From contig NC_008278.1 of assembly GCF_000058485.1 (NCBI RefSeq), positions 3,838,962 to 3,902,961 on the forward strand: a stretch of 64,000 nt of DNA. Reading direction: 5' to 3'. The number at the start of each line of letters is the position of its first letter. The stretch's first letter is position 1. Shown one piece after another: positions 27,332 to 47,853 of the stretch. Source of the DNA: Frankia alni ACN14a (GTDB taxonomy: Bacteria > Actinomycetota > Actinomycetes > Frankiales > Frankiaceae). Under the pieces are notes generated by a model that saw only the letters and a list, made by a program, of their open reading frames with translations, searched no databases and was not told the DNA's origin. The translations under genes were made by a program, and so were the position numbers.

Positions 27332-27346
27332 TGGCAGAAACTGCCA
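27332..27346. promoter_or_regulatory. Candidate operator TGGCA-N5-TGCCA (BKACE gene)
   Basis: Perfect palindrome TGGCAGAAACTGCCA, 46 bases before the ATG of the BKACE gene. The same half-sites with the same spacing occur upstream of mftA (31089-31103) and mftD (36157-36171), so one regulator may act on all three. Confidence 0.65.
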
Positions 27347-27392
27347 TGGGCTGCTAGCGTCACCATCCTTCGTGAACTGAAGGAGAGTGGCC

Positions 27393-28292
27393 ATGACTCC
27401 CACGTCCCATCCGGCTCCGGTCGTCCTCGAGGCGGCGATCTCCCCCCTGCGCGACGGCCGGCAGCTGCAGACCACCGAGGAGCTCATCGACGAGGCCCGG
27501 CAGTCCCTGGCCGCCGGGGCCGGCGTCATCCACCATCACCACAACTTCCGGCTGACCCGCGACGAGGCCGTCGCCCAGGTCCTGCGCATCCAGCGCGAGG
27601 TGCTCGCGACCTTCCCGCACGCCTGCCTCTACAACGACTACCTGCGCGGCGAGCAGGTCATGGCCGAGAAGAACGCCCACCTGCCGGCGCTGGCCCACGC
27701 CGGCCTGCTCACCATGGCGGCGCTGGACCCGGGGCTGACGCAGTTCGCCGTGCTCGACGAGGACGGGCTGCCGTCGCGCCACCGGCAGGGCGGCGCCGAC
27801 TACGCGGCCGCGCACGAGGTCGTCGCGTTCGCCCGTCGCACCGGCGCCGCGCTGAGCATCGGGATCTACGACCCGAGCAACCTGCGCTGGACCCTCGCCT
27901 ACGAGGCCAGGGGCATGTTCCCGGCCGGCTCCGTCATCAAGCTGTACTTCGGCGGCCAGTACCTGATCAACGGGGCGCCGACCGCGGGTTTCGGCCTGCC
28001 CCCCACCAGACAGTCCCTCGACATGTACCTGTCGATGATGGCGGGCTCCACCCTGCCGTGGGTGGTCAGCATCCAGGGCGGTGTGCTGCTCGAGTCCGAG
28101 CTGGCCCGCTACGCCCTGGAACGCGGCGGCCATCTCCGGGTCGGCATCGAGGACATGGCCGGGCTCAACCCGATGACCAACCGGGAGACCGTCGAGGCCG
28201 CGGCCGCGCTGGCGGCCGAGGTCGGCCGGCCGGTGGCGACCGGCGCCGAGGCGAAGGCCGTCCTGCGGGGCATCCGGGCCGCGGCGGCCTGA
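27393..28292 (+). CDS. BKACE family beta-keto acid cleavage enzyme
   Basis: 299 residues of the 3-keto-5-aminohexanoate-cleavage-type family, which splits beta-keto acids with acetyl-CoA. The N-terminal E-A-A-I-S-P-L-R and the zinc-binding cluster at residues 47-50 (four His in a row) are seen, and G-I-E-D near the end. ATG at 27393 was chosen over a GTG at 27387 because AAGGAG then has a proper 7-base spacing. The promoter holds a TGGCA-N5-TGCCA palindrome shared with mycofactocin promoters. The exact keto acid cannot be predicted. Confidence 0.88.
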   Translation: MTPTSHPAPVVLEAAISPLRDGRQLQTTEELIDEARQSLAAGAGVIHHHHNFRLTRDEAVAQVLRIQREVLATFPHACLYNDYLRGEQVMAEKNAHLPALAHAGLLTMAALDPGLTQFAVLDEDGLPSRHRQGGADYAAAHEVVAFARRTGAALSIGIYDPSNLRWTLAYEARGMFPAGSVIKLYFGGQYLINGAPTAGFGLPPTRQSLDMYLSMMAGSTLPWVVSIQGGVLLESELARYALERGGHLRVGIEDMAGLNPMTNRETVEAAAALAAEVGRPVATGAEAKAVLRGIRAAAA

Positions 28293-28325
28293 CCTCTCAT
28301 CCCCCGTCCCTGTCCGCCGTCCCTG

Positions 28326-29006
28326 TCAGGCCCTCCCCGCGTCCGTGCTCTCCCGGACCGGGGCCGGAGGCGGTGAGCCGGGGGCGGTGAACAGCCCGGG
28401 ACCCACCATCGCCAGGGCGGTGGCGAACAGCTCGGCGGGACTCTCGCCGTGGCCCGCCTCGCCGTAGTCCACGGTCGACAGCCGGGCGGCCGCCGAGACC
28501 ACCGCGGCGGCCAACGCGGCCTGGTGGGAGCGCGGGTCGAGGCCCAGCCGCGCCGCGATGGCGTCCGCCCACAGCCGCTCGCTGTCGGCCATGATCTGGA
28601 ACCACTGGGCCCGGAAGCCTTCGGAGGTGCGCAGCACCCGGTACAGCTGCCGGAGCTGCTCGACGTGGGTGGCCGCCCAGGAGGCGGCCCAGATGACCGC
28701 CAGCGAGGTCTGCAGCGGCTCGCCGGGTGGCCGCTCGGTCAGCTCGGTGGCGATCCGCGCGGCCCCCGCGGTCAGGAAGGGCCGCACGACGTCCTCCTTG
28801 CGGGGGAAGTAGCGGTAGAAGGACCGCTCCGAGACGCCGGCGTGCGCGGCGAGCTCCCGGATGGTGAAGTCGTTCGTGCCGCGCTCGACGAACAGCTCGA
28901 CGACGGCCCGGGAGGCGGCCAGCATCGCCTGTTCCTTGGCCTCGACCACCTCACGGGCCGTGCGGGCCGGCGGCTGTGTCTCGGCGCCTCGCTGGGGCCG
29001 GCTCAT
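28326..29006 (-). CDS. TetR/AcrR family transcriptional regulator
   Basis: 226 residues. DNA-binding part: A-A-S-R-A-V-V-E-L-F-V-E-R-G, F-T-I-R-E-L-A-A-H-A-G-V-S-E-R-S-F-Y-R-Y-F-P-R-K. Ribosome site GGAGGT lies 8 bases before the ATG. It lies between the BKACE gene and the mycofactocin locus, both of which carry the TGGCA-N5-TGCCA palindrome, so it is the best local candidate for the protein that binds that site. That assignment is inference. Confidence 0.9.
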   Translation of the reverse strand: MSRPQRGAETQPPARTAREVVEAKEQAMLAASRAVVELFVERGTNDFTIRELAAHAGVSERSFYRYFPRKEDVVRPFLTAGAARIATELTERPPGEPLQTSLAVIWAASWAATHVEQLRQLYRVLRTSEGFRAQWFQIMADSERLWADAIAARLGLDPRSHQAALAAAVVSAAARLSTVDYGEAGHGESPAELFATALAMVGPGLFTAPGSPPPAPVRESTDAGRA

Positions 29007-29110
29007 CCGTGTTCACCTCCGCGTCTCGTAGGCAGCGACGGTAACAAGTCGGTCCGCGGGCCAGGACGGGCCGCGGCCCGCGACGGTGGACTGCGCGAGG
29101 TTCGAGCCCG

Positions 29111-29145
29111 TTGACAGGCTTCCGGGGCCCATGGTTGTCTCTGCG
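29111..29145 (+). promoter_or_regulatory. Promoter of the leader-peptide transcript
   Basis: A perfect -35 hexamer TTGACA at 29111-29116 with a weak -10 (about TTGTCT) 18 bases on. It lies 85 bases before the leader peptide start. Confidence 0.4.
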
Positions 29146-29200
29146 TCCTTGCGGTGTCCGTCCGAAGGGCCGGGCCCCCGATCGCGGGGAAGGAGGCAGC

Positions 29201-29341
29201 GTGGCGCAGCCGTCCCGCCGCCCCACCGCGACCGCACGCCGCCGCGCGCTCATGATGTTCTCGCGTCGGCACATCGACCTGCAGCGGGTCACCAGCTGCC
29301 TGTGTCCCGGCGGGTGTCGCGAGGAGCGGCCCGGCGCCTGA
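29201..29341 (+). CDS. Cysteine-type regulatory leader peptide
   Basis: 46 residues from a GTG with AGGAGG 4 bases upstream. The core R-R-H-I-D-L-Q-R-V-T-S-C-L-C-P is the actinobacterial leader peptide pattern (R-R-H-I/V-D-L-x-R-V-x-S, ending in Cys), known to sit before sulfur-uptake and cysteine genes and to control them by ribosome stalling when cysteine is low. An ATG inside at 29251 could also serve. A 7-bp hairpin (29349-29367) directly follows the stop. The genes it should control are broken (see ABC and LLM remnants). Confidence 0.75.
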   Translation: MAQPSRRPTATARRRALMMFSRRHIDLQRVTSCLCPGGCREERPGA

Positions 29342-29348
29342 GCGGACC

Positions 29349-29367
29349 GGCCGTCCTCGTGACGGCC
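29349..29367 (+). promoter_or_regulatory. Hairpin after leader peptide
   Basis: GGCCGTC-CTCGT-GACGGCC, seven perfect pairs, starting eight bases after the leader stop. It is placed where an attenuation or ribosome-site-hiding stem would be expected. No T-run follows, so factor-dependent termination or translation control is more likely than a simple terminator. Confidence 0.4.
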
Positions 29368-29507
29368 GTCCCGGACCCGCCGGCCACTCTCCCCGCCTCA
29401 TTCCCGCCCGCCGCCAGGCCGCCGCCACGGCACCGACGCCGCGACGCCCTCGATCCACCGGCCCGCCCTGCCTGCGCCGATCCGCACCGGCCTGCGCGGC
29501 CGCGGCG

Positions 29508-30032
29508 GTGGCGGACCCGGCGGTGGCGGACTCGGCGGTGGCGGGCCGGGCCGTGGCGGGCCTGTTGGCCCTGCGTGGGCTGCGGGTGTCGTACCGCGCG
29601 CGGCGGCGCGGTCGAGGCGGTGCGCGGCGTCGACCTCGACGTCCACCCCGGCGAGATCGTCGCCCTGGTCGGCGAGTCGGGGTCGGGCAAGTCGACCACG
29701 GCCCGGCTCGTGCTGCGCCTGGCCGAGCCGGGTGCCGGGCGGATCGTCTTCGACAGCGAGGACGTCACCGCCGCCCGCGGCGCCCGCCTGCGCGCCCTGC
29801 GCCGCCGGGCACAGCTGATCTACCAGAACCCCTACGCCTCGCTGAACCCGCGGTTCTCCGTCGCCGAGGTGATCACCGAGCCGCTGCGGGTGTTCCGCGT
29901 CGGCGACCGGGCCTCGCGCCTGGCTCGCGCCCGCGCGCTGCTCGACCGGGTCGCGCTGCCGGCCGCGACGCTGCACCGCCGCCCCCCGGAGCTCTCCGGC
30001 GGGCAGCGTCAGCGGGTCGCGATCGCCCGGGG
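29508..30032 (+). pseudogene. Truncated ABC transporter ATPase (oligopeptide/DppF type)
   Basis: The frame first reads L-L-A-L-R-G-L-R-V-S-Y, then a one-base shift near 29600 moves the match into the next frame: A-V-E-A-V-R-G-V-D-L, the Walker A loop G-E-S-G-S-G-K-S-T, Q-N-P-Y-A-S-L-N-P and the signature L-S-G-G-Q-R-Q-R-V-A-I-A-R-G. There the match stops, so Walker B and everything after are gone, and a monooxygenase sequence begins at once. Two lesions mean no active ATPase. The type is the peptide/nickel-like ATPase with a signature Q-R-Q-R. Confidence 0.75.
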
Positions 30033-31031
30033 CTGTCGTTCCTCACGCCGGGCAACTATCCGGACGACGACCCCCGCGCGGGCCTGGAGGACACCCTGCG
30101 GCTGTTCGAGTTCGCCGAACGGCTCGGCTTCGACGGCGCCTGGATCCGCCAGCGGCACCTCGAGCACGGGGTGTCCTCGGCGGCGGTGTTCCTCGCGGCC
30201 GCCGGCCAGCGGACCCGGCGGATCCAGCTCGGCACCGCGGTCATCCCGATCGGGTACGAAAGCCCGTTCCGGCTGGCCGAGGATCTCTCCCTCGCCGACG
30301 TGCTGTCCGGCGGGCGGCTACAGGTGGGACTCAGCGCCGGTACCCCGCCGCACGCCGAGCTGCTCGCCGACCTCGTCTTCGACGGCGACTGGCGTGGTTT
30401 CGACCTGTCCTACGGGCGCATCGCCCGGCTGCGCGACAACCTGCTCGGCGGCCGTCTCGGCGACGCCGACACCGTCATCCAGTCCCCGGGCAACGGCCAG
30501 CGTCCCCGTCTGCAGCCGCACGCACCCGGCCTCGCCGACCGGCTCTGGTACGGCGGGGGCAGCCTGCGCTCGGTGCGCTGGACCGGCGAGAACGGCCTGA
30601 ACCTGCTCTCGGGAAACATCGTGTCCGGTGAGGGGACGGACGACTTCGTGACCGCGCAGCGGACCCTCATCCGTGAGTACCGCCGCCTGATCGGCGCCGA
30701 CCGGCCGGCGCGGGTGGCCCTCGGCCGGGTCGTCGTGCCCTTCGACAGCGCCGACCGCGCCACCCGGGAGCGTTACCGGGTGTACGCCGCCGCCCGCCAC
30801 GAGCGCACCCTGCGCCCGCACGGCGAGCGACGGACCCTGTTCGCCCCCGACCTCGTCGGCGACGCGCAGCGGATCCTCGACGGGCTGCGGGCCGACGCGG
30901 CGGTGGGGGAGGTGACCGAGCTGCGGGTGGAGCTGCCGTACGAGTTCGACCGCCGCGACTACGAGCAGGTCCTCCACGACGTGGCGCACACCGTCGCCCC
31001 GGCCCTCGGCTGGCGCCCCCCACCGGCCTGA
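30033..31031 (+). pseudogene. LLM FMN-dependent monooxygenase lacking its start (CE1758-like)
   Basis: About 332 codons of a luciferase-like monooxygenase: L-S-F-L-T-P-G-N-Y-P-D-D-D-P, W-I-R-Q-R-H-L-E-H-G-V-S-S-A, L-G-T-A-V-I-P-I-G-Y-E-S-P and S-G-G-R-L-Q-V-G-L-S-A-G. It resembles the CE1758 group of FMN monooxygenases that often goes with sulfur-related ABC transporters. The first residues and start codon are missing at a junction with the ABC fragment. The frame is open back to a GTG at 29508, so a 507-residue hybrid could be made, whose first part is out-of-frame ABC sequence. The catalytic body looks intact. Confidence 0.7.
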
Positions 31032-31088
31032 CCGTCCCCCCACCTCGACCCGGGCCGACCTGCCCGTTCTGGTCCGACATCTTCCCTT

Positions 31089-31103
31089 TGGCACTCGGTG
31101 CCA
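31089..31103. promoter_or_regulatory. Candidate operator TGGCA-N5-TGCCA (mftA promoter)
   Basis: TGGCACTCGGTGCCA, perfect 6-bp arms around a 3-bp centre, 74 bases before the mftA start. The identical 15-mer is present upstream of mftD, 5.07 kb away. Confidence 0.75.
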
Positions 31104-31177
31104 TTACAGTCGTCTGCGCGGCGGGACCACGCGACACCGGTTCCGGACCCGGTCAGCTCTAGCGATGGGGAGTGCTC

Positions 31178-31288
31178 ATGGAGGAGTCAGTGCAGGTCGA
31201 CCAGGCCGTCGAGGCGTCCGCGGAGCCGGTCGTGGCGGACCTCCTCGTCGAGGAGGTCTCCATCGACGGCATGTGCGGCGTCTACTGA
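31178..31288 (+). CDS. mftA: Mycofactocin precursor peptide
   Basis: 36 residues: an acidic leader and the strictly conserved end I-D-G-M-C-G-V-Y. MftC decarboxylates and cyclises the last Val-Tyr pair; after cleavage the dipeptide-derived core becomes mycofactocin, a redox cofactor. GGGGAG lies a few bases before the ATG. It is followed 8 bases later by mftB. The gene is short enough to be missed by automatic annotation. Confidence 0.95.
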   Translation: MEESVQVDQAVEASAEPVVADLLVEEVSIDGMCGVY

Positions 31289-31296
31289 GCGCCGAC

Positions 31297-31614
31297 GTGA
31301 CGGACGAGCGCGGCGCGGCCGGCCTCCCGCCGGCCGCCGCCGCGTTCGACCTGGACCGGGCCTGGCGGCTGCATCCCCAGGTGTCCGTGCGGCCGGAGTC
31401 GTTCGGGGCGCTGCTCTACCACTTCGGCACCCGCAAGCTGTCGTTCCTCAAGGAACCCGGGCTGCTGGCGCTGGTGGAGGCCCTGCCGGCGCATGCCAGC
31501 GCGCGGGCCGCGGCGGACGCCGTCGGGCTGCCCGCCGCGGATCTCGGCCGCTACCAGCGGGCGCTGGCGACCCTCGCCGCGTCCTCCATGATCGTCGAGG
31601 GGAGCACCCCGTGA
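31297..31614 (+). CDS. mftB: Mycofactocin precursor-binding chaperone MftB
   Basis: 105 residues. After a variable N-terminus it has W-R-L-H-P-Q-V-S-V-R-P-E-S-F-G-A-L-L-Y-H-F-G-T-R-K-L-S-F-L, the typical RiPP recognition fold (PqqD-like) of MftB. It holds the MftA leader and presents it to the radical SAM enzyme. Start GTG at 31297; its stop overlaps the mftC start. Confidence 0.92.
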   Translation: MTDERGAAGLPPAAAAFDLDRAWRLHPQVSVRPESFGALLYHFGTRKLSFLKEPGLLALVEALPAHASARAAADAVGLPAADLGRYQRALATLAASSMIVEGSTP

Positions 31615-32885
31615 CCTCCGCCGCCCCGGCGCGTCTCGTCGACCACTTCGCCCGCGGACTCGCCGCTCCCATCTGTCTGACGTGGGAGCTCACCTACGCC
31701 TGCAACCTGGCCTGCCGGCACTGCCTGTCCAGCTCCGGACGGCGTGACCCCCGCGAGCTGACGACCGCAGAGTGCCGCGCGGTCATCGACGAGCTCGAAC
31801 GCATGCAGGTCTTCTACGTCAACATCGGCGGCGGTGAACCGACCGTGCGCGCCGACTTCTGGGAGCTGGTCGACTACGCCACCGCCCACCACGTCGGCGT
31901 GAAGTTCTCCACCAACGGCGTGCGGATCACCCCCGAGGTCGCCACCCGGCTCGCCGCCAGCGACTACGTCGACGTGCAGATCTCCCTCGACGGTGCGACC
32001 GCCGAGATCAACGACGCGGTGCGCGGCGCCGGCTCGTACGACACCGCCGTGCGCGCGATGGCGAACCTGGCCGAGGCGGGCTTCCGCGGGTTCAAGCTGT
32101 CCGTCGTCGTCACCCGGGCGAACGTCGGCCAGCTCGACGCCTTCGCCGCGCTGGCGGACCGCTACGGCGCCCAGCTGCGGCTGACCCGGCTGCGTCCGTC
32201 CGGGCGCGGCGCCGACGTGTGGGACGAGCTGCACCCGACCGCCGCCCAGCAGCGTGAACTCTACGACTGGCTCGTCGCCGCCGGCGAGAACGTCCTGACC
32301 GGCGACTCCTTCTTCCACCTGTCCGCCTACGGCCAGGCGCTGCCGGGGCTGAACCTCTGCGGAGCCGGCCGGGTGGTGTGCCTGATCGACCCGGTCGGCG
32401 ACGTCTACGCCTGCCCGTTCGCCATCCACGACGAGTTCCTCGCCGGCAACGTGCGCGACGCCGGCGGCTTCACCGGGGTGTGGCGGACCTCGGAGCTGTT
32501 CGCGGCGCTGCGCGAGCCGCAGTCCGCCGGGGCGTGCGCGTCCTGCGGGCACTTCGACGCCTGCCAGGGCGGCTGCATGGCGGCGAAGTTCTTCACCGGC
32601 CTGCCGCTCGACGGCCCCGACCCGGAGTGCGTGGTCGGCCACGGCGTCGACGCGCTGCTCGCCCGAGGGGACACCGCCCCGCCGAAGCCGTCGGTCGACC
32701 ACTCCCGCACGGTCGTGCGGGCCGCCGGGCGCCGCGGCGGCAGCGGGCCGGTGCCGGTGACGATCGGCCGCGCGCCGAGCGTGCTGTCCCCGGCGCTGCC
32801 GCCGGTCAGCGCCTGCCAGGAGGATCCCCTCGCCGGCTTCGACCCGGCCGCCGCCGGCCTGCCCGCTGCCGGAGCCGCGCGTTGA
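31611..32885 (+). CDS. mftC: Mycofactocin radical SAM maturase MftC
   Basis: 424 residues. The radical SAM iron-sulfur site is C31-x3-C35-x2-C38 (Y-A-C-N-L-A-C-R-H-C), followed by G-G-G-E-P. The C-terminal SPASM domain has C-G-A-G-R-V-V-C, D-V-Y-A-C-P-F and C-A-S-C-G-H-F-D-A-C-Q-G-G-C for extra clusters. It converts the C-terminal Val-Tyr of MftA. About 75 residues after the last cysteine cluster form a Pro/Ala-rich tail longer than I expect for the family. GTG start overlaps mftB. Confidence 0.95.
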   Translation: MTSAAPARLVDHFARGLAAPICLTWELTYACNLACRHCLSSSGRRDPRELTTAECRAVIDELERMQVFYVNIGGGEPTVRADFWELVDYATAHHVGVKFSTNGVRITPEVATRLAASDYVDVQISLDGATAEINDAVRGAGSYDTAVRAMANLAEAGFRGFKLSVVVTRANVGQLDAFAALADRYGAQLRLTRLRPSGRGADVWDELHPTAAQQRELYDWLVAAGENVLTGDSFFHLSAYGQALPGLNLCGAGRVVCLIDPVGDVYACPFAIHDEFLAGNVRDAGGFTGVWRTSELFAALREPQSAGACASCGHFDACQGGCMAAKFFTGLPLDGPDPECVVGHGVDALLARGDTAPPKPSVDHSRTVVRAAGRRGGSGPVPVTIGRAPSVLSPALPPVSACQEDPLAGFDPAAAGLPAAGAAR

Positions 32886-32938
32886 CGGGTGTCAACCGAA
32901 CGGGTGGTCGTCGTCGCCGGGCTCGTTAGCATGACCGC

Positions 32939-33295
32939 ATGGTCCCGATGCCGCCGGACGCGGTGAGCTGCCAGGCGCTCACCCCGGTCTTCGCCCTGCT
33001 GGGCAAGCGGTGGAGCGGGCTGATCATCGGCACGCTGCTGGCCGGGCCGGCCCGCTTCTCCGAGATCGCGAAGCTGGTGCCCGGGGTGAGCGAGCGGATG
33101 CTGTCCGGGCGCCTGGCCGAGCTGTCCCAGGCCGGGCTGGTGGAGCGCGAGGTCCTCGACGGCCCGCCGCTGGCCACCCGCTATCGGCTGACCTCCTGCG
33201 GCGAGGCGCTGCGCCCGGCGCTGCACGCCCTGGAACTGTGGGCGCAGGAGCATCTCGTCCACGCCGACCCGCGGGCGGCCTCCGGTTGCGGCTGA
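32939..33295 (+). CDS. HxlR family transcriptional regulator
   Basis: 118 residues. Winged-helix motifs: L-G-K-R-W-S-G-L-I-I-G-T-L-L-A-G-P-A-R-F, and S-E-R-M-L-S-G-R-L-A-E-L for the recognition helix. A cysteine at residue 11 (V-S-C-Q-A-L) sits where many HxlR/HypR proteins have their redox-sensing cysteine. It follows mftC by 53 bases and may be an insertion in the original mft gene order; its target is unknown. Confidence 0.87.
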   Translation: MVPMPPDAVSCQALTPVFALLGKRWSGLIIGTLLAGPARFSEIAKLVPGVSERMLSGRLAELSQAGLVEREVLDGPPLATRYRLTSCGEALRPALHALELWAQEHLVHADPRAASGCG

Positions 33296-33303
33296 GCCAC
33301 GAC

Positions 33304-33345
33304 GTCCGGGCATGCGAACGCCGGGTCCGGGCATGCGAACGCCGG
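33304..33345. repeat. 21-bp direct repeat
   Basis: Two exact copies of GTCCGGGCATGCGAACGCCGG directly after the HxlR gene. No coding role seen. Confidence 0.75.
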
Positions 33346-33437
33346 GGCGGACCGGGGACGTCCCGGCCGGCCCCGGTGCCGTGGCGTGCTGGGGCTTGTG
33401 GTGCTGTGGTGCTGTGCAGCGTGGCTTTGCGGGTGGG

Positions 33438-34001
33438 TCAGGGAGCGATGAACTGCAGGTCGAGCTCGATCTTCACCTTGTCGGCCAGGGCGAGCTTGCC
33501 GGCACCGAGCGGCATGTTGAAGTTGATGCCGTAGTCACTGCGCTTGATCTCGCCGGTCGCCGAGAACCCGGAGCGGACGCGGCCGTCGGCCGGGTGGGTG
33601 TCGACGCCGTAGAACTCCACCGCGAACGTGACCGGCTTGGTGACGCCGTTGATGCTCAGGTCGCCGGTGAGCTCGTACTCCTCGCCGCTACCGGAGATCG
33701 AGGTCGAGACGAAGGTCATCGCCGGGTGCGCGGCCAGGTCGAAGAAGTCGGTGGAACGCAGGTGCGCGTCCCGGTCGGCCTGGTTGGTGTTGATCGACGC
33801 CAGGTCGATCGAGGCGTCGACGGCGACCGACTGGAGCGACTCGCCGACGGCGAGGGTCGCCGAGAACGTGTCGAACCGGCCGCGGACGTTGGTGACGCCG
33901 AGGTGGCGGATCTGGAAGGTGACACTGGAGTGGGCCGTGTCGAGCGTCCAGGTACCGGGGACGAGCGGCAGCGGTGCGAGCTCGGACGAGGGGGCGGTCA
34001 C
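33438..34001 (-). CDS. YceI family lipid-binding protein
   Basis: 187 residues. The family pattern is clear: W-T-L-D-T-A-H-S-S-V-T-F-Q-I-R-H-L-G, V-R-G-R-F-D, H-P-A-M-T-F-V-S, and G-D-L-S-I-N-G-V-T-K-P-V. YceI proteins are small lipocalin-like barrels that bind polyisoprenoids or other long amphiphiles. No signal peptide is seen, so it may stay in the cytoplasm. The GTG at 34001 has GGAGGT just upstream. Its place between mftC and mftD has no known link with mycofactocin. Confidence 0.93.
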   Translation of the reverse strand: MTAPSSELAPLPLVPGTWTLDTAHSSVTFQIRHLGVTNVRGRFDTFSATLAVGESLQSVAVDASIDLASINTNQADRDAHLRSTDFFDLAAHPAMTFVSTSISGSGEEYELTGDLSINGVTKPVTFAVEFYGVDTHPADGRVRSGFSATGEIKRSDYGINFNMPLGAGKLALADKVKIELDLQFIAP

Positions 34002-34150
34002 GGGACCTCCAGGGGCGGTCGGGCCGGAACACCGTTGCGGCTGCAACGGTGGGCGTACGAAACGATAGTGGCTAACGAAATGCAAGTCACCGGGGGGCCG
34101 GGCTCGAGCCGCCCTGGCGCCCGGCGCCGACCCGCGAGAGGGTCGGCGCC

Positions 34151-34978
34151 GTGAGCACCGAACCCCGGCCCCTGCCGCCGCCCGCTCCCGCCCCTGCTCG
34201 TGGTACCGGCTCTAGCTCCGGTCCTGGTCCTGCTCGTGGTTCCGGCTCTACCTCCGGTCCTGGTCCTGCTCGTGGTTCTGGTCCTGGTCCTGCAACGAAT
34301 CCCAGCGCCGAGCCCGACGGACTCGCCCGGACCCGCCGCGCGCTGCACGCCGTCGCCGAGCATGTCCTCGCGGCGGCGCGTTACCGGGCCACCGGCCGCA
34401 TCGGCCTGGCCGTCACCCCCGGCGGGTTCGCCACGCCTGCGTTCGGTCCCGCCGGGCGCACCGTGGCCGTGGCCGGCACCGACCTGGTCGTGCGCGACGG
34501 GGACGCCGAGACGGCGCGGAGTCCGCTGACGACGCTGCGGGAGGCGGCGCACCTGGCCGGCGTCGAACCGGGCGGCCCGGCGGCGGTCTACCGGCTGGCC
34601 ACCCCCTGCCACCCCGACGAGCCGCTGGACATCGACCCCGACGCCGCCCGCCTCCTCGCCGACTGGTTCGCCCTGGGCGCCGCCGCGCTGCGCCGCTGGT
34701 CGGTCGAGATCGCCGCCGACGCGCCGAGCCCGCCCACGCTGTGGCCGGAGCACTTCGACCTCGCGATCCGCGCCGGGCAGATCAACTACGGCCTGTCGCC
34801 GGGCGACGAGGCGTTCGCGGCGCCCTACGCCTACGTCGGCCCGCCGCTGCCGCCGCCGAGCCTTCCCACCGGCTTCTGGAACGCCTCCTTCGGTGCCGCC
34901 CGCACCTGGACCGACGTCGGGTCGGTCGATGCCGTCGTCGACCTGTTCCGCCAGGCGCGCCGCCACGCCTCCACCTGA
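34151..34978 (+). CDS. Conserved actinobacterial protein of unknown function
   Basis: 275 residues. Residues 1-60 are a Pro/Gly/Ser-rich tail made by about 2.5 copies of a 36-bp repeat. The folded part contains R-R-A-L-H-A-V-A-E-H-V-L, a beta-rich middle with G-R-I-G-L-A-V-T-P-G-G-F, then W-P-E-H-F-D-L-A-I and a final G-F-W-N-A-S-F-G-A. The W-P-E-H-F-D and G-F-W-N-A-S-F blocks look like conserved functional motifs, but I cannot assign a function. Divergent from yceI. Confidence 0.75.
   Translation: MSTEPRPLPPPAPAPARGTGSSSGPGPARGSGSTSGPGPARGSGPGPATNPSAEPDGLARTRRALHAVAEHVLAAARYRATGRIGLAVTPGGFATPAFGPAGRTVAVAGTDLVVRDGDAETARSPLTTLREAAHLAGVEPGGPAAVYRLATPCHPDEPLDIDPDAARLLADWFALGAAALRRWSVEIAADAPSPPTLWPEHFDLAIRAGQINYGLSPGDEAFAAPYAYVGPPLPPPSLPTGFWNASFGAARTWTDVGSVDAVVDLFRQARRHAST
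34198..34290. repeat. 36-bp in-frame tandem repeat
   Basis: About 2.5 copies of a 36-bp unit starting GGTCCTGGTCCTGCTCGTGG, adding 12 residues each to the N-terminal tail of the unknown protein at 34151. Codon use (GGT, GCT, CCT) differs sharply from the neighbouring GC-rich codons. Confidence 0.7.
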
Positions 34979-35716
34979 CGATCCCCGCCGCGCCTGCCCC
35001 GCAGCCCGCCTGCCCCGCGGCCCGCAGCCCTCGCACTCTAGCCACTGTGCGTGATCGGTGAGGTGCGAAACTGCTTCAGCCCGAACCCAACTCTGGTGAT
35101 CTTGCGGTTCCGCGGAACCGCCTCCCGGCCCCCGCGCCGGCGCGACCGTTCGGCGCCCGGGCCGAGCCTCGGTCGCCTAGTCACTGAGGGCGACGGCAGG
35201 CAGGGTGGTTGCTGCGGTGTGCGGGGGACCGGCGCCGAACACCCACCAGCCGCCAGCACGCTGCGCGATCGCCGCCGCCGCGAGCACGTGACACGGTCAT
35301 GCGGATTCCACGCAACCGCGCCGCGCCGTCGGACGTCAGCCCGACGTCCCTGACGATCCCGAGCGCCGGGACCACCGCGTGTGCCCACGTCCTCGCCCCG
35401 ACGGGATCCGGATCGGGTGGCGCAGACGAGCTGTCTGATCGCCGTCGGCGACGCGGCCTGGGAGCCGTCCACCGACTCCGCCTGCTGCGCGCGACCACTG
35501 CCGCCGGCGCTCCCGGCCGCCGCCCCGGCCAGAACGCGGCCAGAACACGGCCACATCATGCCGAGGCTTGGGCACGGTTTTCAGGTCGAAAAGCGTGTCC
35601 ATCCCTCGGCACGATTCCGTGCGCGAACGACTGCAGAGGGGGACGAAGAATGTCGTAGCGCCCTCGGTCGTAGCGCCCTCGTTCGTAGCGCCCTCGGCCA
35701 ATTCGGTCCGCGGCGG
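34979..35716. other. Region without a convincing gene
   Basis: About 740 bases. Open frames exist on both strands but none resembles a known protein or has a good ribosome site. Contents seen: a dispersed repeat copy (35067-35121) and three copies of a 15-bp unit CGTAGCGCCCTCGGT near 35654-35700. Confidence 0.5.
35067..35121 (-). repeat. Dispersed repeat, copy B
   Basis: Read on the minus strand: GCGGTTCCGCGGAAC, CAAGATCACCA, then GGGTTCGGGCTGAAG. It matches copy A at 18986-19040 in nearly every position. It lies in a gene-free stretch. Confidence 0.65.
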
Positions 35717-36100
35717 TCAGCCGGCCACGAGGCGCCGGGCATGCTCGGCCTCGTCCGGGCGGACCTCGCTCGGCCGGCCTGTCACGAGCCGCCACCGCGT
35801 GCGCGGTGTCGCGGCGGCGGGCTCGCCGGGCGGGTGAGCCACGGGCAGGTGACCGGCGGCCAGGGCGGTCGTCATGCGGGCGCGGACCTCGTCGGCCCGG
35901 TCCGGTTCGGTGGCGAACAGGGTGCGCAGCCGCAGCGTCCCGTGCTCGTTCGCGATCGCGGTGTGGTGGGAGGCCAGCGGGCACGGTGGGGGATGGTCCC
36001 AGTGCCCGCACAGCGCCGCCGTGATCGCGGCGCCGGGCGCGCGCTCGTCGCCGCCGGGCGCCAGGACCAGGACGAACTCGTGGGCGAACGGCCGGCGCAC
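35717..36100 (-). CDS. Uncharacterised Cys/His-containing protein divergent from mftD
   Basis: 127 residues from a GTG at 36100; an ATG at 36148 would add 16 residues. The start F-A-H-E-F-V-L-V-L-A-P-G-G-D-E looks like a strand followed by a turn. The striking part is C-G-H-W-D-H-P-P-P-C-P-L-A-S-H-H-T, with two Cys and several His that could bind a metal. The C-terminus has R-T-R-W-R-L-V-T-G-R-P-S-E-V. I do not recognise the family. It faces mftD across the TGGCA-N5-TGCCA operator and so may be co-regulated with it. Confidence 0.65.
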   Translation of the reverse strand: MRRPFAHEFVLVLAPGGDERAPGAAITAALCGHWDHPPPCPLASHHTAIANEHGTLRLRTLFATEPDRADEVRARMTTALAAGHLPVAHPPGEPAAATPRTRWRLVTGRPSEVRPDEAEHARRLVAG

Positions 36101-36156
36101 ACCTCGGATTGTCCCGTCCGGTCGACCGGTGCGTACCGTCACCGGCATCGCTATAG

Positions 36157-36171
36157 TGGCACTCGGTGCCA
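36157..36171. promoter_or_regulatory. Candidate operator TGGCA-N5-TGCCA (mftD promoter)
   Basis: TGGCACTCGGTGCCA, identical to the site before mftA. It directly follows a possible -10 box TATAGT (36152-36157 region), so a bound protein would cover the transcription start. 118 bases before the mftD ATG. Confidence 0.75.
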
Positions 36172-36288
36172 AATCGTGCCCGACCCTGCCGTCCGATGTC
36201 CCGACACCCGCGGCTGCCCGGCCGGGCGAGGCATCCGGGGCCCGTCTCGCCGGTCGGCGGCGGGCGGACACGACGAGGTGGGAGTGCG

Positions 36289-37467
36289 ATGGCCAGCACA
36301 AGGACATGGTTCGAAACGGTTGCCGAGGCCCAGCGCAGGGCGCGTAAGCGGCTGCCGCGGGGGGTGTACCAGGCGCTCGTCGCCGGGACCGAGGCCGGCG
36401 TGACGATGAACGACAACGTCGACGCGTTCGGTGAGCTCAAGATCCGGCCCCGCGTCGCCGACCTGCCGGCGACCCGCGACCTGTCGACGACGGTGATGGG
36501 GCAGCAGATCAGCTTCCCGGTGCTCATCTCGCCGACCGGGGTGCAGGCGGTCCATCCCGACGGCGAGGTCGCCGTCGCCCGGGCCGCCGCCGGCGCGGGC
36601 ACGGCGATGGGCCTGTCCTCGTTCGCCTCCAAGCCGGTCGAGGAGGTCGGCGCGGTCAACGACAAGCTGCTGTTCCAGACCTACTGGGTGGGGTCGCGCG
36701 AGGAGATTCTCGCCCGTGCCGAGCGCGCCCGGTCGGCGGGCGCCAAGGGCCTGATCGTGACGCTGGACTGGGTGTTCGACTCGCGGCGGGACTGGGGCAG
36801 CCCGTTCATCCCGGAGAAGCTCGACCTCAGGGCGATGGCCCGCTACGCCCCGCAGGTCGCCCTGCGCCCGGGCTATCTCGCCCGCTGGCTGCGCAGCCGC
36901 TCGCTGCCCGACCTCGGTGTGCCCAACCTCGGCCCGCGTGAGGCCACTCCGCCGACCTTCTTCGGTGCCTACGGTCAGTGGATCGGCACGCCCCCGCCCA
37001 CCTGGTCGGACCTGGCCTGGCTGCGCGAGCAGTGGGGCGGCCCCTTCATGATCAAGGGGATCACCCGGCCGGACGACGCCCGCCGCGCGGTGGACGTCGG
37101 CGCGAGCGCGATCTCGGTGTCGAACCACGGCGGTAACAACCTCGACTCCACCCCGGCGTCGATCCGCTGCCTGCCCGGCGTCGTCGACGCGGTGGGTGAC
37201 CAGGTGGAGGTGCTGCTCGACGGCGGGATCCGCCGCGGCAGCGACGTCGTCAAGGCGCTCGCGCTCGGCGCGCGTGCGGTGCTGATCGGCCGCGCCGCCC
37301 TGTTCGGCATGGCTGCCGGCGGCGAGCGGGGGGTGACGAACGTGCTGGAGATCCTCCGGCAGGGCGTGAGCGAGACGCTGCTGGGGCTCGGCCATGCGTC
37401 ACTGCACGAACTGTCGCCCGAGGACATCCTCGTCCCGGCCGGCTTCGCGATCGACCGGAAAGTCTAA
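36289..37467 (+). CDS. mftD: Mycofactocin flavin-dependent dehydrogenase MftD
   Basis: 392 residues of the FMN alpha-hydroxyacid-dehydrogenase family, clearly of the MftD type: W-F-E-T-V-A-E-A-Q-R-R-A, R-D-L-S-T-T-V-M-G-Q, I-S-P-T-G-V-Q-A-V, L-S-S-F-A-S-K-P-V-E-E-V, S-V-S-N-H-G-G-N-N-L-D and D-G-G-I-R-R-G-S-D-V-V-K. It oxidatively deaminates the intermediate AHDP to form the redox-active core of mycofactocin. GAGGTGGGAG precedes the ATG. It lies 3.4 kb from mftC instead of next to it. A strong terminator follows. Confidence 0.95.
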   Translation: MASTRTWFETVAEAQRRARKRLPRGVYQALVAGTEAGVTMNDNVDAFGELKIRPRVADLPATRDLSTTVMGQQISFPVLISPTGVQAVHPDGEVAVARAAAGAGTAMGLSSFASKPVEEVGAVNDKLLFQTYWVGSREEILARAERARSAGAKGLIVTLDWVFDSRRDWGSPFIPEKLDLRAMARYAPQVALRPGYLARWLRSRSLPDLGVPNLGPREATPPTFFGAYGQWIGTPPPTWSDLAWLREQWGGPFMIKGITRPDDARRAVDVGASAISVSNHGGNNLDSTPASIRCLPGVVDAVGDQVEVLLDGGIRRGSDVVKALALGARAVLIGRAALFGMAAGGERGVTNVLEILRQGVSETLLGLGHASLHELSPEDILVPAGFAIDRKV

Positions 37468-37941
37468 CCGTCCACGGTCGACCGGATGGGTAGAGAAACC
37501 ATCCGGATACAAACTGGAAACGGATTACCGGTGACGCGGTTCGGGGTGCAACTTCTTGTTGCACCCCGAACCGCGTTTCTCTTGCATATTGCTTCGGGGG
37601 CCCGGTGCCGTGCACCATCGTGCCATGCCGTGTCGTCATCGCAATGTGACCCCAGGTGCTGGATGGCTTAGTACTGTCGTTTCACCGACCGGAAACCGCA
37701 TTCGGTTCCGGCCGGCGGCGGCCCGACCGAGACGTGCCGGGCAGTCTGGACAGGTCAATGCTTTCGGTGGTCGTCTTCTCCGCTCCGGATCGGACGGCCC
37801 CTCGGCGGCGGCGCGCACCGACGACGGTTCCGCGCCGAAGCCGCCCGACCGCAGTGACCATTCTGGCTGAATGATTCCGAACCGTTTTGCGGAGCCGTTC
37901 GTGGTGGCGGTGCGCCGCGTCAGCATGGGGGTCACCTTCGA
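37468..37941. other. Intergenic region with terminator
   Basis: About 470 bases between mftD and the lipoprotein gene. Apart from the terminator (37534-37576) and an imperfect hairpin with CCGGAA/TTCCGG arms (about 37688-37715), no gene is supported. Confidence 0.5.
37534..37576 (+). terminator. Strong terminator after mftD
   Basis: A perfect 19-bp stem: ACGCGGTTCGGGGTGCAAC, loop TTCTT, and the exact reverse complement, followed by the T/C-rich TTTCTCTTG. This is a Rho-independent terminator and the longest perfect hairpin in the window. Confidence 0.85.
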
Positions 37942-39330
37942 ATGCGTCGCTGTGCCGTGAAACTGAGCAGGCCTGCGAAACAGAGCAGGCCTGCGAAACA
38001 GAGCAGGCCTGCGAAACAGAGCAGGCCTGCGAAACTGGGCAGGCCCGCGAAACTGGGCAGGCCTGTGAAAGTGCGAGCTCCGGCGAGACCGAGAGTTCCG
38101 GTGAAGCCGAGGTTGCCGGCGATACTGGGAATGTCGACGGTCCTGCTGGGGCTGGTCGTCGGGACCGGGTGCTCGGGGACGACCTCCTCGGCGGCGTCCT
38201 GCACCGGGGGCAGGGCGGCGCCGGGGGTGACGCCCGACGAGGTCCGGGTCGGCCTGCTCTACCCCGACTCGGGCCTGCTCGCCGGCGCGTTTCCAGGGCT
38301 GCGGGCCGGTGTGGACGCCCGCCTCGGCGAGATCAACGCCGCCGGCGGGATCAACGGGCGGAAGGTCGTCTACGACTGGCGTGACGACGCCGGCACCGCC
38401 CAGGGGAACCTCAACGGTGCCCGGGAGCTGGTCGACCAGCGCGGCGCGTTCGGCCTGCTGGAGTTCACCGTCGCCGCCACCGGCAGCGCGAAGTACCTCG
38501 CCGACCGGGGAATCCCCACGGTGGGCCTCGCCGCCGAGGACGTCTGGGCGCGGTACGGCAACATGTTCTCGTTCTCCAACACCCTCGGCGCGCCGATCGA
38601 CACCTACGGCCGCTTCGTCCATGACCGCGGCGGCACGTCCGCCTTCCTGCTGTACAGCGCGATGTCCGCGGGGGTCTCCGGCGCGACCCTGCGGGTCGGG
38701 CAGAGCCTGCAGGCGCTCGGCGTGCAGGTTGCCGGCAGCCACGCCTACACCCCCGGCGCGGACAGCGTGAGCGACGTCGCCCGCCAGATCGTCGACTCCG
38801 GCGCGGACACCATCGTCACGATGCTCACCCCCACGGCCCTGCCGCCGGTGCTGCGCGCGGTCCGCGACGTCGGGGGGAGCCCGAAGGTGGTGCTGTCGAT
38901 GAGCGGCTACGACCACAGCCTGCTGCGCCGCCACGGCCCCGACCTGGCCGGGGTGTACGTCCCGGTGTTCTACCGGCCGTTCGAGGCCGGGGGCGTCCCG
39001 GTGGCGCACTACCTCGACGTGATGGCGCGCTACTCGCCGCAGACCGACGACCCCGAGCAGGAGTTCGGCCTGATCGGCTACATCGACACCGACCTGCTCC
39101 TGCGCGGGTTGCAGGCCTCGGGACCCTGCCCCACCCGGCAGTCCTTCGTCGCCGGGATGCGCACGCTGACCCGCTACGACGCCGGCGGCCTCATCCAACC
39201 GACCAACATCGGTGCGACCCGGGGTCGCCCGCCGACCTGCTTCGCGCTGATGCAGGTCAACCCGTCGGGCAGCGCCTTCTCCGTCGCGCAGGACAACCTG
39301 TGCGGCAAGGCGCTCGGCCCGACCCTCTGA
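37942..39330 (+). CDS. LivJ-type ABC substrate-binding lipoprotein with repeat N-terminus
   Basis: 462 residues. A signal segment (L-G-M-S-T-V-L-L-G-L-V-V-G-T-G-C) ends in a lipobox cysteine. The mature part has V-R-V-G-L-L-Y-P-D-S-G and L-G-E-I-N-A-A-G-G-I-N-G-R-K, and G-G-L-I-Q-P near the end, so it is a paralogue of the protein at 15786-17015. In front of the signal lie about 40 residues of a basic repeat (R-P-A-K-Q-S, 18-bp units), unusual for an export signal. A later internal start may be the true one. No permease is nearby. Confidence 0.85.
   Translation: MRRCAVKLSRPAKQSRPAKQSRPAKQSRPAKLGRPAKLGRPVKVRAPARPRVPVKPRLPAILGMSTVLLGLVVGTGCSGTTSSAASCTGGRAAPGVTPDEVRVGLLYPDSGLLAGAFPGLRAGVDARLGEINAAGGINGRKVVYDWRDDAGTAQGNLNGARELVDQRGAFGLLEFTVAATGSAKYLADRGIPTVGLAAEDVWARYGNMFSFSNTLGAPIDTYGRFVHDRGGTSAFLLYSAMSAGVSGATLRVGQSLQALGVQVAGSHAYTPGADSVSDVARQIVDSGADTIVTMLTPTALPPVLRAVRDVGGSPKVVLSMSGYDHSLLRRHGPDLAGVYVPVFYRPFEAGGVPVAHYLDVMARYSPQTDDPEQEFGLIGYIDTDLLLRGLQASGPCPTRQSFVAGMRTLTRYDAGGLIQPTNIGATRGRPPTCFALMQVNPSGSAFSVAQDNLCGKALGPTL
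37966..38068. repeat. 18-bp in-frame tandem repeat
   Basis: Five to six copies of GCAGGCCTGCGAAACAGA, the first four exact, encoding R-P-A-K-Q-S. Located at the 5' end of the lipoprotein gene. Confidence 0.85.
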
Positions 39331-39722
39331 CGGCTCCGCGCGGCGGCCCGGCCCCGGCCGTCGCGCGGGCCGCCCCGGTCCGGCGGGGGGCGCCGCCGCC
39401 CCCCGCCGGACAGATCCGCCGTAGCGATACCGCCGCGCCGCCGCGCCGCCGCGCCGCCGCGCCGACCGCGCGCCCTGCCGGGTTGCGATGCACGCGCTGC
39501 GGTGCGGTGCGGCGCGGACGTTTCACCGTCCCAGACCGCGCGCAGCGCACCGCAGAACCGACCTCGCCGGCGGGCCGTCGCCGGCCAGTGGCTCGGTGAC
39601 GGCCTGCCGGGTTCGAGACGACACGTGAGGGCATCCCCAGGAAACGGACGGGGGCAGGCCCCCGCCACGGTCGGCCGCTGGCCGGATGGGGGCGGGGCGC
39701 CGGGCTCCCTAGCGTGATCGAC
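39331..39722. other. Intergenic region with hairpin and 8-bp repeat
   Basis: About 390 bases, no gene. It holds a hairpin (39378-39411) and four exact copies of CGCCGCGC (39431-39462). The second half must contain the promoter of the lipase-like gene. Confidence 0.5.
39378..39411 (+). terminator. GC-rich hairpin after lipoprotein gene
   Basis: GTCCGGCGGGGGGC, loop GCCGCC and the exact complement, 14 pairs, 48 bases after the stop. No T-run, as is common for actinobacterial terminators. Confidence 0.55.
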
Positions 39723-41186
39723 ATGGCGCTACGTCCTCACGACAGACACCTCCGTCACGAAACGATCATCCCGTCCGGGCGCTTCCCGAGGAACCGGCGG
39801 GCGGCCGCCGCCGCGTTCGCCGCCCTCGCGCTGACGGCCACCGGCGCCCTTGGTAGCGCCGCAGCTCCCGCCACCGCGTCTGCCGGCGCCACCGCGTCTG
39901 CCGGGACCGCGTCTGCCGGGACCGCGTCTCGGGCCATCGCGGCTTCCGTCGCGGCGTCTCCCACTGTCGTCGCATCGTCCGGCGCCGCGACATCGCCGTT
40001 GCGGTTGCCGTTGCCGACTGCGGGACCTTCGGACCGCGGCGGGGTGGTCTCGTCCGAGCGGCTGGACGTCCTGTCCGTGGCGCGGGTGCGGGCGGTGCTG
40101 ACCGCGAGCGGATTCGACGCGGACCCGGCGGTCGTGCGCGCCGGCGTGGTCACCTACCGGCTCGTCTACCGCACGATCGACCCGCGCGGGCAGGCAACCA
40201 CCGCCAGCGGCTTGCTGGCCCTGCCCGCCACCGACGACCGCCGGCTGCGTGTCGTCTCCTACACCCACGGTACCGAGATCGCCCGCGTCGACGCCCCGTC
40301 GACGGCGACGGACCTGGCCGCCGACGGCTGGGGCCAGGCCCCGGCCCTCACCTACGCCGCGGCCGGTTTCGCCGCGGCCGCCCCCGACTACCTCGGCCTC
40401 GGCGTCGGGCCCGGTCCGCATCCGTGGATGGACGTGCCCTCCGAGGTGTCGGCGTCGCTCGACCTGCTGCGCGCCACCCGGGCGTTCCTCGCCGCGCAGG
40501 GGCGCACGGTCGACCCGCGGGTCCTGGTGACGGGGTTCTCCCAGGGCGCCTCGGCGGCGACCGGCCTCGGCGCGGCGCTGCAGGCCGGCGCCGAGGCGTC
40601 GCTGCGCCTCGGCGCGCTGGCGCCGGTCAGCGGCGCCTACGACTTCCGCTCGGTGGAGCTGCCCGCCCTGCTGGCCGGCCGGGTCGAACAGCCCTACGGC
40701 GTCGGCTACACCGCCTACCTGCTCGTCGCGTTCAACCGGCTGCACCACCTGTACGACGCGCCCGCGGAGGTCTTCCGCGACCCGTCGGTCGAGGCGCTGT
40801 TCGACGGCGAGCACTCCGGCCAGCAGTTCGTCGCCGGCCTGCCGGCGAGCATCGACGCCCTGCTCACCCCGCGCGGCGCCGAGCTGCTGCGCCATCCACG
40901 GGGTCGGTTCGCGGCGGCGCTGGCGGTGGCCGACGCGACCTGCTCCGCGCCGCCGGGCCTGCGGTCGCTGCCACAGCCGCTGCCCGCGCCGGTGCGGCTC
41001 TACGCCGGCGGCGCCGACACCCAGGTGCCCCGGGCGAACAGCGAGCACTGTGCCGCGGCGCTGCGCGGGCACGGCGTCGACGCCCCGATCGTCGACCTCG
41101 GCGCGGGCGTCGACCATCTGGGCTCCAACCGGGCCGGCACCGCGGCCGTCGTTCGCTGGTTCCTGACGCCCGGTGGCCCGCGCTGA
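39723..41186 (+). CDS. Secreted lipase/alpha-beta hydrolase
   Basis: 487 residues. An Arg-rich start and an Ala-rich hydrophobic stretch (A-A-F-A-A-L-A-L-T-A-T-G-A-L) form an export signal, followed by an Ala/Thr/Ser linker with 15-bp repeats. The hydrolase part has S-Y-T-H-G-T-E, the nucleophile elbow G-F-S-Q-G-A-S, and a late D-H-L-G-S-N with the catalytic His. This arrangement matches secretory lipase (LIP) family proteins. It probably acts outside the cell on lipids or esters. Confidence 0.82.
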   Translation: MALRPHDRHLRHETIIPSGRFPRNRRAAAAAFAALALTATGALGSAAAPATASAGATASAGTASAGTASRAIAASVAASPTVVASSGAATSPLRLPLPTAGPSDRGGVVSSERLDVLSVARVRAVLTASGFDADPAVVRAGVVTYRLVYRTIDPRGQATTASGLLALPATDDRRLRVVSYTHGTEIARVDAPSTATDLAADGWGQAPALTYAAAGFAAAAPDYLGLGVGPGPHPWMDVPSEVSASLDLLRATRAFLAAQGRTVDPRVLVTGFSQGASAATGLGAALQAGAEASLRLGALAPVSGAYDFRSVELPALLAGRVEQPYGVGYTAYLLVAFNRLHHLYDAPAEVFRDPSVEALFDGEHSGQQFVAGLPASIDALLTPRGAELLRHPRGRFAAALAVADATCSAPPGLRSLPQPLPAPVRLYAGGADTQVPRANSEHCAAALRGHGVDAPIVDLGAGVDHLGSNRAGTAAVVRWFLTPGGPR

Positions 41187-41299
41187 GCTCGCGCCTGCGA
41201 CGGGCCGTGGATCGGCGGCGCCTGGGCGGGACCTGCGCCGGCCACGCCGGGGGAGCGATCGAGGCCCGCGGGGGCCGCCGGGTGTGCCAGGCTCCACCC

Positions 41300-42010
41300 A
41301 TGACGTCTGCCGTCGCGGAGTCGGGTGGAGCGCGGACGCCGGCCGCGGTGCTGTTCGACATGGACGGCCTGCTCGTCGACACCGAGCGGCTGTGGACGCG
41401 GGCGCAGGAGGACCTCGCCGCCCACCTCGGCGGCGTGTTCACCCCCGAGATCAAGGCGGCGCTCATGGGCCGCGGCCCGGACACCGCGCTGCACCTCATG
41501 CTGTCGCTGCTCGGGGTGGACGGTTCGCGCTTCGACGAGGCGGCGCGGTTCGTCATGGGTCGCATCGTCGAGCTGTTCGCCGCGCCGGGGGCGATCGTGG
41601 CCCGGCCCGGGGCCGTCGACCTGCTCGACGCGCTCGCGGCGCAGGGCGTGCCGCTGGCGCTGGTGTCGTCGTCGGCCCGGGTGCTCATGGACCACGTGCT
41701 CGGCGCGGTGGGCGCGGCCCGCTTCCAGGTGTCGGTCGCCGGGGACGAGGTGGTGCACGGCAAGCCGGATCCCGAGCCGTACCTGCGGGCCAGCCGGCTG
41801 CTCGCCGCGCCGCCGGCGCGCTGCGTCGTGCTGGAGGACAGCGCCTCGGGCGCGACGGCGGGCCTGGCCGCGGGCTGCGTGACCGTCCTCGTCCCCTCGA
41901 CGCCACGGCCGCCGGACGTCCCCGCCGACGCCGTCGTGCCGAGCCTCGCCGACGTCACCCCGGCGTGGCTCGCCGCCCTGGTCGACCGTCGGACTCCCCG
42001 GGAAGGATGA
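41300..42010 (+). CDS. HAD family phosphatase (beta-phosphoglucomutase-like)
   Basis: 236 residues. HAD motif I is F-D-M-D-G-L-L-V-D-T-E, motif II V-S-S-S-A-R, motif III G-K-P-D-P-E-P-Y with the lysine, and motif IV L-E-D-S-A-S-G. The cap is the small helical type of sugar-phosphate phosphatases or phosphoglucomutases. The substrate cannot be predicted. Confidence 0.9.
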   Translation: MTSAVAESGGARTPAAVLFDMDGLLVDTERLWTRAQEDLAAHLGGVFTPEIKAALMGRGPDTALHLMLSLLGVDGSRFDEAARFVMGRIVELFAAPGAIVARPGAVDLLDALAAQGVPLALVSSSARVLMDHVLGAVGAARFQVSVAGDEVVHGKPDPEPYLRASRLLAAPPARCVVLEDSASGATAGLAAGCVTVLVPSTPRPPDVPADAVVPSLADVTPAWLAALVDRRTPREG

Positions 42011-42032
42011 CGTCGGGCTCGGACAGCCGCAG

Positions 42033-42788: not shown

Positions 42789-42947
42789 CACAGACCTCCC
42801 GCATTCGTCTATCTCGGTCAAACGTGAGAAGACGTTAGATGATCTGACGATCGCGTCAAGAGGTGCGGCGCGCGCCCGTCGTCGGCATCGGCGGGTTCCG
42901 CGGCGTGGGCGGGCCGGTGGCGGCATCCGGCGCGAACGGGTCGTAAC

Positions 42948-44066: not shown

Positions 44067-44153
44067 CCCGGCTGGCCTGACCGGCGGCGCTGCCAGCCGG
44101 TGGGGCCAGCCGGTGGGGCGGGAGGCCGGTGGGGCGGGAGGCGTGACGGGTGG

Positions 44154-46706: not shown

Positions 46707-46754
46707 GCCGTACTCCCTCGTCCCCGCGATCACTCGGCACCTTGTGATGGGGAT

Positions 46755-46768
46755 CCTAGTGCACTAGG
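46755..46768. promoter_or_regulatory. Palindromic operator CCTAGTGCACTAGG
   Basis: Perfect 14-bp palindrome, 49 bases upstream of the double CoA-transferase start on the minus strand. It shares the TAGTGC core with the candidate site near the double-TetR gene at 18884. Confidence 0.6.
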
Positions 46769-46830
46769 TCAGCGAGGAGAACTATCTCGTCCTGTGCGCG
46801 GTGCGATGCGGTGCGATGCGGGAGCGGCGT

Positions 46831-46886
46831 GCGGTTCCGCAGGGAAACATCAGGATCACCAAACCGGGGTTCGGGTCGAGGGGTTC
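46831..46886 (+). repeat. Dispersed repeat, copy C
   Basis: Starts GCGGTTCCGCAGGGAAACA, has CAGGATCACCA and ends GGGGTTCGGGTCGAGGGG. It is the most diverged copy. It lies between the amidotransferase 3' end and the CoA-transferase promoter. Confidence 0.5.
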
Positions 46887-47745: not shown

Positions 47746-47853
47746 CGGCGTACACCCTTCCTCGTTCCGTCTCCCTGCCCGGTCCGGACCGCCGCCTGCC
47801 CGATCCGTTCTCGCGTCGACCGTTCTCGCGTCGACCGTTCTCGCGTCGTCGTC

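Follow-up and report, generated by a model that had tools for sequence, protein, structure and literature searches.

A probable MftR operator shared by the mftA and mftD promoters of Frankia alni ACN14a, and a neighbouring BKACE gene with a palindrome of its own

We analyzed a 64-kb stretch of the chromosome of the nitrogen-fixing bacterium Frankia alni ACN14a (contig NC_008278.1; the whole stretch is called the window below), in which the palindrome TGGCA-N5-TGCCA stands upstream of mftA and mftD, two genes for the redox cofactor mycofactocin, and of a gene of the BKACE family. The source genome, G000, comprises 7,497,934 bases in a single contig (C1). We consider it highly probable that mftA and mftD are under the control of the distantly encoded TetR-family repressor MftR, that the same operator serves further genes and that the BKACE gene stands apart. 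Judging from the sequence, the palindromes of mftA and mftD are very probably binding sites of MftR.

A palindrome common to two mycofactocin promoters

The window holds three matches to TGGCAN5TGCCA and no others, at the positions already given in the preliminary description. All three fall inside 8.84 kb, and shuffled windows contained 0.06 matches on average, none of 100 reaching three. Two of them are identical 15-mers of sequence TGGCACTCGGTGCCA. One lies at 31089..31103 on the forward strand, upstream of the mycofactocin precursor gene mftA (31178..31288, +; TIGR03969, 54.5 bits, cut-off 25), which is followed by mftB (31297..31614, +; TIGR03967, 108.9 bits, cut-off 33) and by mftC for the radical S-adenosylmethionine maturase (31611..32885, +; TIGR03962, 667.1 bits, cut-off 265). 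The other, at 36157..36171 (+), precedes the pre-mycofactocin synthase gene mftD (36289..37467, +; TIGR03966, 722.7 bits, cut-off 470.85) and was retained as a predicted operator from the genome search and its conservation in relatives. A -10-like hexamer, TACAGT (31105..31110, +), starts one base past the mftA site. A possible -10 box had also been pointed out beside the mftD copy, and this is indeed the case: TATAGT (36152..36157, +) overlaps the operator by one base, its last T being also the first base of the palindrome, and relatives have kept this arrangement. With a strict sigma-70 consensus, no promoter was scored at either site.

The conservation of the two sites was followed in a genus set of 13 genomes, 12 of which have mftC and 11 a close mftD (at least 88% identity). 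A site precedes mftA in all 12 genomes with mftC, with exact arms in 10 and one arm change in two; in genome G005 this copy lies on a contig other than that of mftC. Likewise, all 11 genomes with a close mftD carry the site before it (10 exact, one with a single change); G009 has no more than a 40% relative. Pairwise identity averages 0.93 and 0.96 within the operators; it falls to 0.67-0.81 over the adjoining 6-8 bases and to 0.35-0.52 in the outer flanks. The -10-like hexamer abuts the operator in mftA and mftD promoters alike: it reads TATAGT, TACAGT or TAGAGT in the 11 aligned mftD promoters and TACAGT, TAAAGT or TACACT in the 11 aligned mftA promoters (G005 is outside the alignment). Finally, at E <= 1e-60 neither mftC nor mftD nor MftR was found in genome G002, which is 99% complete and whose only palindrome is of another type. 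Such an absence has a published parallel: the accessible part of an earlier survey lists Frankia alni ACN14a with the mycofactocin system and Frankia sp. CcI3 without it (PMC3023750).

The number of matches in the genome tells another story. TGGCAN5TGCCA occurs seven times in G000 and its reversed control pattern 11 times, so the bare motif is not enriched; the looser core GGCAN5TGCC, with 173 matches where its reversed control has 422, is uninformative alone. Random scatter and a lack of conservation in relatives had been named beforehand as grounds for dropping the idea. Enrichment across the genome is absent, but clustering and conservation before mftA and mftD are both present, and what stands out is precisely that the sites cluster, that the mftA and mftD copies are identical and that they are conserved, not the motif count. 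One could assume from the count that the sites are due to chance, or that they are part of something unrelated, for instance the CIRCE (controlling inverted repeat of chaperone expression) element of HrcA or sigma-54 promoters: TGGCACTC resembles a CIRCE half-site, and TGGCAC a sigma-54 -24 box. The spacing is unlike that of either, the site has been kept in 11-12 orthologous promoters and it is missing together with the mft genes in G002, which makes this explanation hardly credible.

Just upstream of mftA, between 29508 and 31031, an ATP-binding cassette transporter ATPase stretch appears by eye to be broken near 30030 and to continue, out of frame, into a luciferase-like monooxygenase gene right before mftA, as if by deletion.

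MftR and its predicted operator

The operator type is already known. In Mycobacterium smegmatis, MftR protects TCCATTCTGGCACTCGATGCCATATAT before mftA, as established by footprinting and electrophoretic mobility shift assays, and a consensus T-N2-GGCA-N5-TGCC-N2-A was derived from 83 Mycobacterium and Mycolicibacterium sequences (PMC8728441, accessible part). The same source reports that MftR overproduction represses the mft genes and that long-chain acyl-coenzyme A (acyl-CoA) compounds are the effectors, and it refers to work according to which nearly 50 genes are affected by the tuberculosis homologue of MftR. The M. smegmatis 15-mer TGGCACTCGATGCCA and the Frankia one are a single base apart. 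The positions also agree, the M. smegmatis footprint extending from -79 to -53 and the Frankia site lying 75-89 bases before the mftA start codon, both in the mftA promoter; the GGCA-N5-TGCC palindrome is present at the mftA and mftD sites alike. On the other hand, the accessible part of PMC8728441 reports the site only 5' of mftA, whereas Frankia copies head mftABC, mftD, a flavoprotein reductase gene and the mftR promoter. Our literature search, with most subscription papers beyond its reach, found no MftR sites described outside mycobacteria. Haft and co-workers defined in 2011 a mycofactocin gene set whose families match those found here; the accessible text of that paper describes no operator or regulon and does not contain the string "palindrom" (PMC3023750).

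Like M. smegmatis, Frankia possesses an MftR gene. Only one gene of G000 exceeds the MftR cut-off (TIGR03968, 224.9): C1:4680287-4680850, with 288 bits. It is separated from the mftD site by 805 kb and from the mftA site by 810 kb. MftR is above this cut-off in 10 of the 13 genomes of the genus. The other components are far from each other as well, with mftE at C1:6363913 and two genes over the mftF cut-off at C1:2828233 and C1:6351393; the pathway is thus dispersed, which differs from M. smegmatis.

To score further sites, we used a matrix built from the Frankia mftA and mftD sites themselves, which therefore reach 22-24.3. A scan with MftC gave a longer list of loci, of which the best 80 were kept, four of them from Frankia; two of the other 76 had too little DNA and were dropped. 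Upstream of mftC, 43 of these 74 loci from outside Frankia reached a score of at least 12; among 1116 control windows 12 did so, and among 740 shuffles three. The site also follows the recognition helix of the MftR-like protein: it is present in 23 of 27 loci where this helix begins with GIG and in 16 of the 32 others (Fisher p 0.006, kinship uncorrected), and with the grouping GI[GS]RRT in 29 of 34 against 10 of 25 (p 0.0006, also uncorrected for kinship).

Two other Frankia promoters carry the palindrome. In six genomes (G000, G003, G004, G009, G010 and G011), TGGCACCGGGTGCCA or TGGCACCGAGTGCCA stands upstream of a ferredoxin-reductase-like flavoprotein with Pyr_redox_2 and Reductase_C domains, with scores of 23.2-24.3. 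These loci were fetched because they contained the palindrome, so that the figure measures its recurrence before one gene and not a count of all gene copies. In four genomes an APH/EcKL-like kinase gene lies divergent to the flavoprotein gene, whereas G003 and G010 have another gene upstream (enoyl-CoA hydratase-like by eye); as this neighbour varies, what stays the same is the flavoprotein as target. The flavoprotein promoter is organized like that of mftA, with a pyrimidine-rich tract, the operator, one base and then TAGAGT or a similar hexamer. The second promoter is that of mftR. In G000, mftR is back to back with a gene encoding a 1428-residue fusion of the two mycofactocin-associated FadH/OYE (old yellow enzyme) families (C1:4681066-4685352, that is 11067-15353 of locus L013), TIGR03996 matching best at residues 14-656 and TIGR03997 at 728-1427. 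This divergent arrangement is found in four of the ten genus genomes with MftR, and in all four the stretch between the two genes contains a site, in one case degenerate: TGGCACTCGGTGCCG in G004 and G011 (18.0 in each), TGGCACTCAGTGTCG in G003 (17.8) and the degenerate AGGCACTCGGTGTCG in G000 (10.4).

The way in which MftR would act can be sketched as follows. Encoded 805-810 kb away, it would sit on the mftABC promoter just upstream of the -10-like box, and on the mftD promoter at the -10 and start region, and once bound it would shut off both. If M. smegmatis is a guide, its release would be brought about by long-chain acyl-CoA, and the unlinked pieces of the pathway could then be switched on together. 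The same operator would also act before the flavoprotein in related Frankia and, in a weaker form, in the promoter shared by mftR and the OYE fusion, while the BKACE gene probably forms a separate cassette with its own convergent TetR and a related palindrome. The dispersed layout and the candidate new members appear to be new.

Several observations weigh against control by MftR, in addition to the lack of genome-wide enrichment. The outer bases of the mycobacterial consensus are only half kept, the mftA site having the left T only and the mftD site the right A only. Single base changes did not abolish MftR binding in M. smegmatis (PMC8728441, accessible part). No MftR was found in G009 and G010, two drafts in which mftC is present. 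Neither mftE nor the two mftF candidates have a site of at least 12 in the DNA fetched around them. The copy between mftR and the OYE fusion is degenerate in G000 itself, and the six other genomes with MftR have no OYE fusion there and no site of at least 9 in the loci around mftR. Outside the genus, 31 of the 74 loci stay below 12. Lastly, palindromes of this class are also present elsewhere, as on contig C115 of genome G007.

The BKACE gene, its TetR neighbour and other palindromes

The third palindrome of the window, TGGCAGAAACTGCCA (27332..27346, +), precedes the BKACE gene (27393..28292, +; PF05853, 90 bits, cut-off 24.8), whose start was chosen by eye, GTG 27387 being also possible. Convergent to this gene is a TetR-family regulator (28326..29006, -) with a TetR_N domain, a match to the MftR C-terminal domain PF17754 (25.4 bits, cut-off 22.7) and 58.2 bits with TIGR03968, for which the cut-off is 224.9. 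BKACE was found in three of the 35 genomes of the order (E <= 1e-80) and the TetR in the same three; for the latter, 84 of the first-look candidates were scored in about 20 larger genomes, and all candidates in G005, G008 and G012. The palindrome is identical in the three carriers, as is TATGGCAGAAACTGCCA, in spite of a diverged 5' side, and this is probably a real element. It is related to the mft sites and is probably a separate candidate operator.

The preliminary description had proposed that a single regulator, either this TetR or a distant MftR, controls the three genes. A distant MftR over mftA and mftD is well supported. The nearby TetR, on its side, is adjacent and is a distant relative of MftR by its C-terminal domain, but it was found in three of 35 genomes, whereas all 12 genomes with mftC have the mftA site and all 11 with a close mftD the mftD site. 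G005, G008 and G012 have the mft sites without such a TetR, G004 has both sites although its locus is altogether devoid of the BKACE/TetR cassette, and the recognition helix reads GVSERSFY instead of the GIGRRTFF of MftR. Its distribution among the genomes scored and its low TIGR03968 score contradict a role of the TetR as common regulator, which we regard as extremely improbable.

One would also wonder whether MftR controls BKACE as well, which would tie mycofactocin to a beta-keto acid cleavage route. The BKACE site fits the published GGCA-N5-TGCC core (PMC8728441, accessible part), lies 3.8 kb from the mftA site and is exact in all three carriers found. The low matrix score is not conclusive either, since low values are common among the mftA promoters of other genera. 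Nevertheless, the likeness to the Frankia mft sites fails beyond the outer arms: the inner arms are G...C around a centre AAA, those of the mft sites being C...G, and the score is 6.2, against 22-24.3 for the mftA and mftD sites from which the matrix derives; the flavoprotein sites reach 23.2-24.3 and the mftR sites 10.4-18.0. Moreover, the gene is confined to three genomes and each time accompanied by the TetR. We therefore consider joint control by MftR unproven and unlikely, and do not regard the proposed link of mycofactocin with a keto-acid route as established. With this score and this distribution, BKACE is not supported as a core gene of the mft regulon.

A parallel can be drawn with TetR repressors of neighbouring catabolic genes, a general class: here too, a TetR-like gene is convergent to the BKACE gene, which has a short palindrome at its promoter. 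We identified no characterised member of this class with the BKACE palindrome. We propose that the window TetR is the likely partner of this palindrome and that BKACE is, with reasonable though not strong probability, under its control; a regulator other than this TetR or MftR seems doubtful.

Four exact sites lie outside the window in G000. C1:3441155 is the flavoprotein site, and C1:4254817 is situated within a long open frame. C1:144439 (score 15.1) precedes a binding-protein-like gene, by eye, and recurs in relatives; related palindromes (loci L001, L077, L079 and L092) are upstream of one binding-protein-like gene in four genomes. C1:3715149 (L015:8150; score 5.9) is located between a flavin reductase gene (PF01613) and, by eye, a CoA-ester lyase-like gene. 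There, TGGCACGTTATGCCA is conserved in five genomes, with GCTAT for GTTAT in a sixth, G010, and it stands among further TGGCA/TGCCA half-sites; this looks like the array of another regulator. On contig C115 of G007 (30000-49999, locus L089), several TGGCAC-N3-GTGCCA copies occur in one apparently catabolic cluster (short-chain dehydrogenase/reductase (SDR) and acyl-CoA ligase genes, with a hydrolase-like gene by eye), one of them forming the middle of a perfect inverted repeat of 35 bases.

The predicted operator outside the mycofactocin cluster

Strong sites were also found before single genes of other actinobacteria. They head four mycofactocin-coupled SDR genes, two from Actinomadura, one from Actinoallomurus and one from Microbacterium, two of the four having been search queries picked for having a site. 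These are the only ones with a score of at least 12 within 300 bases among the 58 SDR-like genes of the 80 loci, and all four exceed the SDR_subfam_1 cut-off. As many as 54 of the 58 lie 1-6.5 kb downstream of mftC on the same strand, probably within the mft operon, and one of them (Microbacterium) has the site; it is present in three of the four placed elsewhere. In Actinoallomurus iriomotensis (L158:1213), the SDR promoter contains a second similar copy of the operator, starting 17 bases past the end of the first. A split mftD has the site in two cases among 46 called mftD genes (a Frankia and Herbiconiux), a further site precedes an mftD match outside the called genes in locus L128, and a strong one heads mftR/mftE in Leifsonia. 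For comparison, among 511 other genes (genes close to mftC excluded) 14 reach 12, and several of these are MftR, MftE or divergent to mftA. Within the window, the 400 bases before the mycofactocin-coupled SDR gene at 11885-12712 contain no site (best score -3.6).

A tempting hypothesis, which we put forward tentatively, would be that the MftR operator is a portable tag on the whole mycofactocin economy across actinobacteria, preceding any biosynthesis gene or linked oxidoreductase that leaves the cluster. If so, the flavoprotein and the fused double OYE of Frankia would be candidates for physiological electron partners of mycofactocin. To our knowledge, the majority of mycofactocin-dependent enzymes outside mycobacteria, and the path by which electrons leave the cofactor, have yet to be identified, and a searchable operator would narrow the choice in each genome to a few testable genes. 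The local BKACE/TetR cassette calls for caution before it is taken for a mycofactocin substrate route. More generally, a pathway split along the chromosome can keep a common control.

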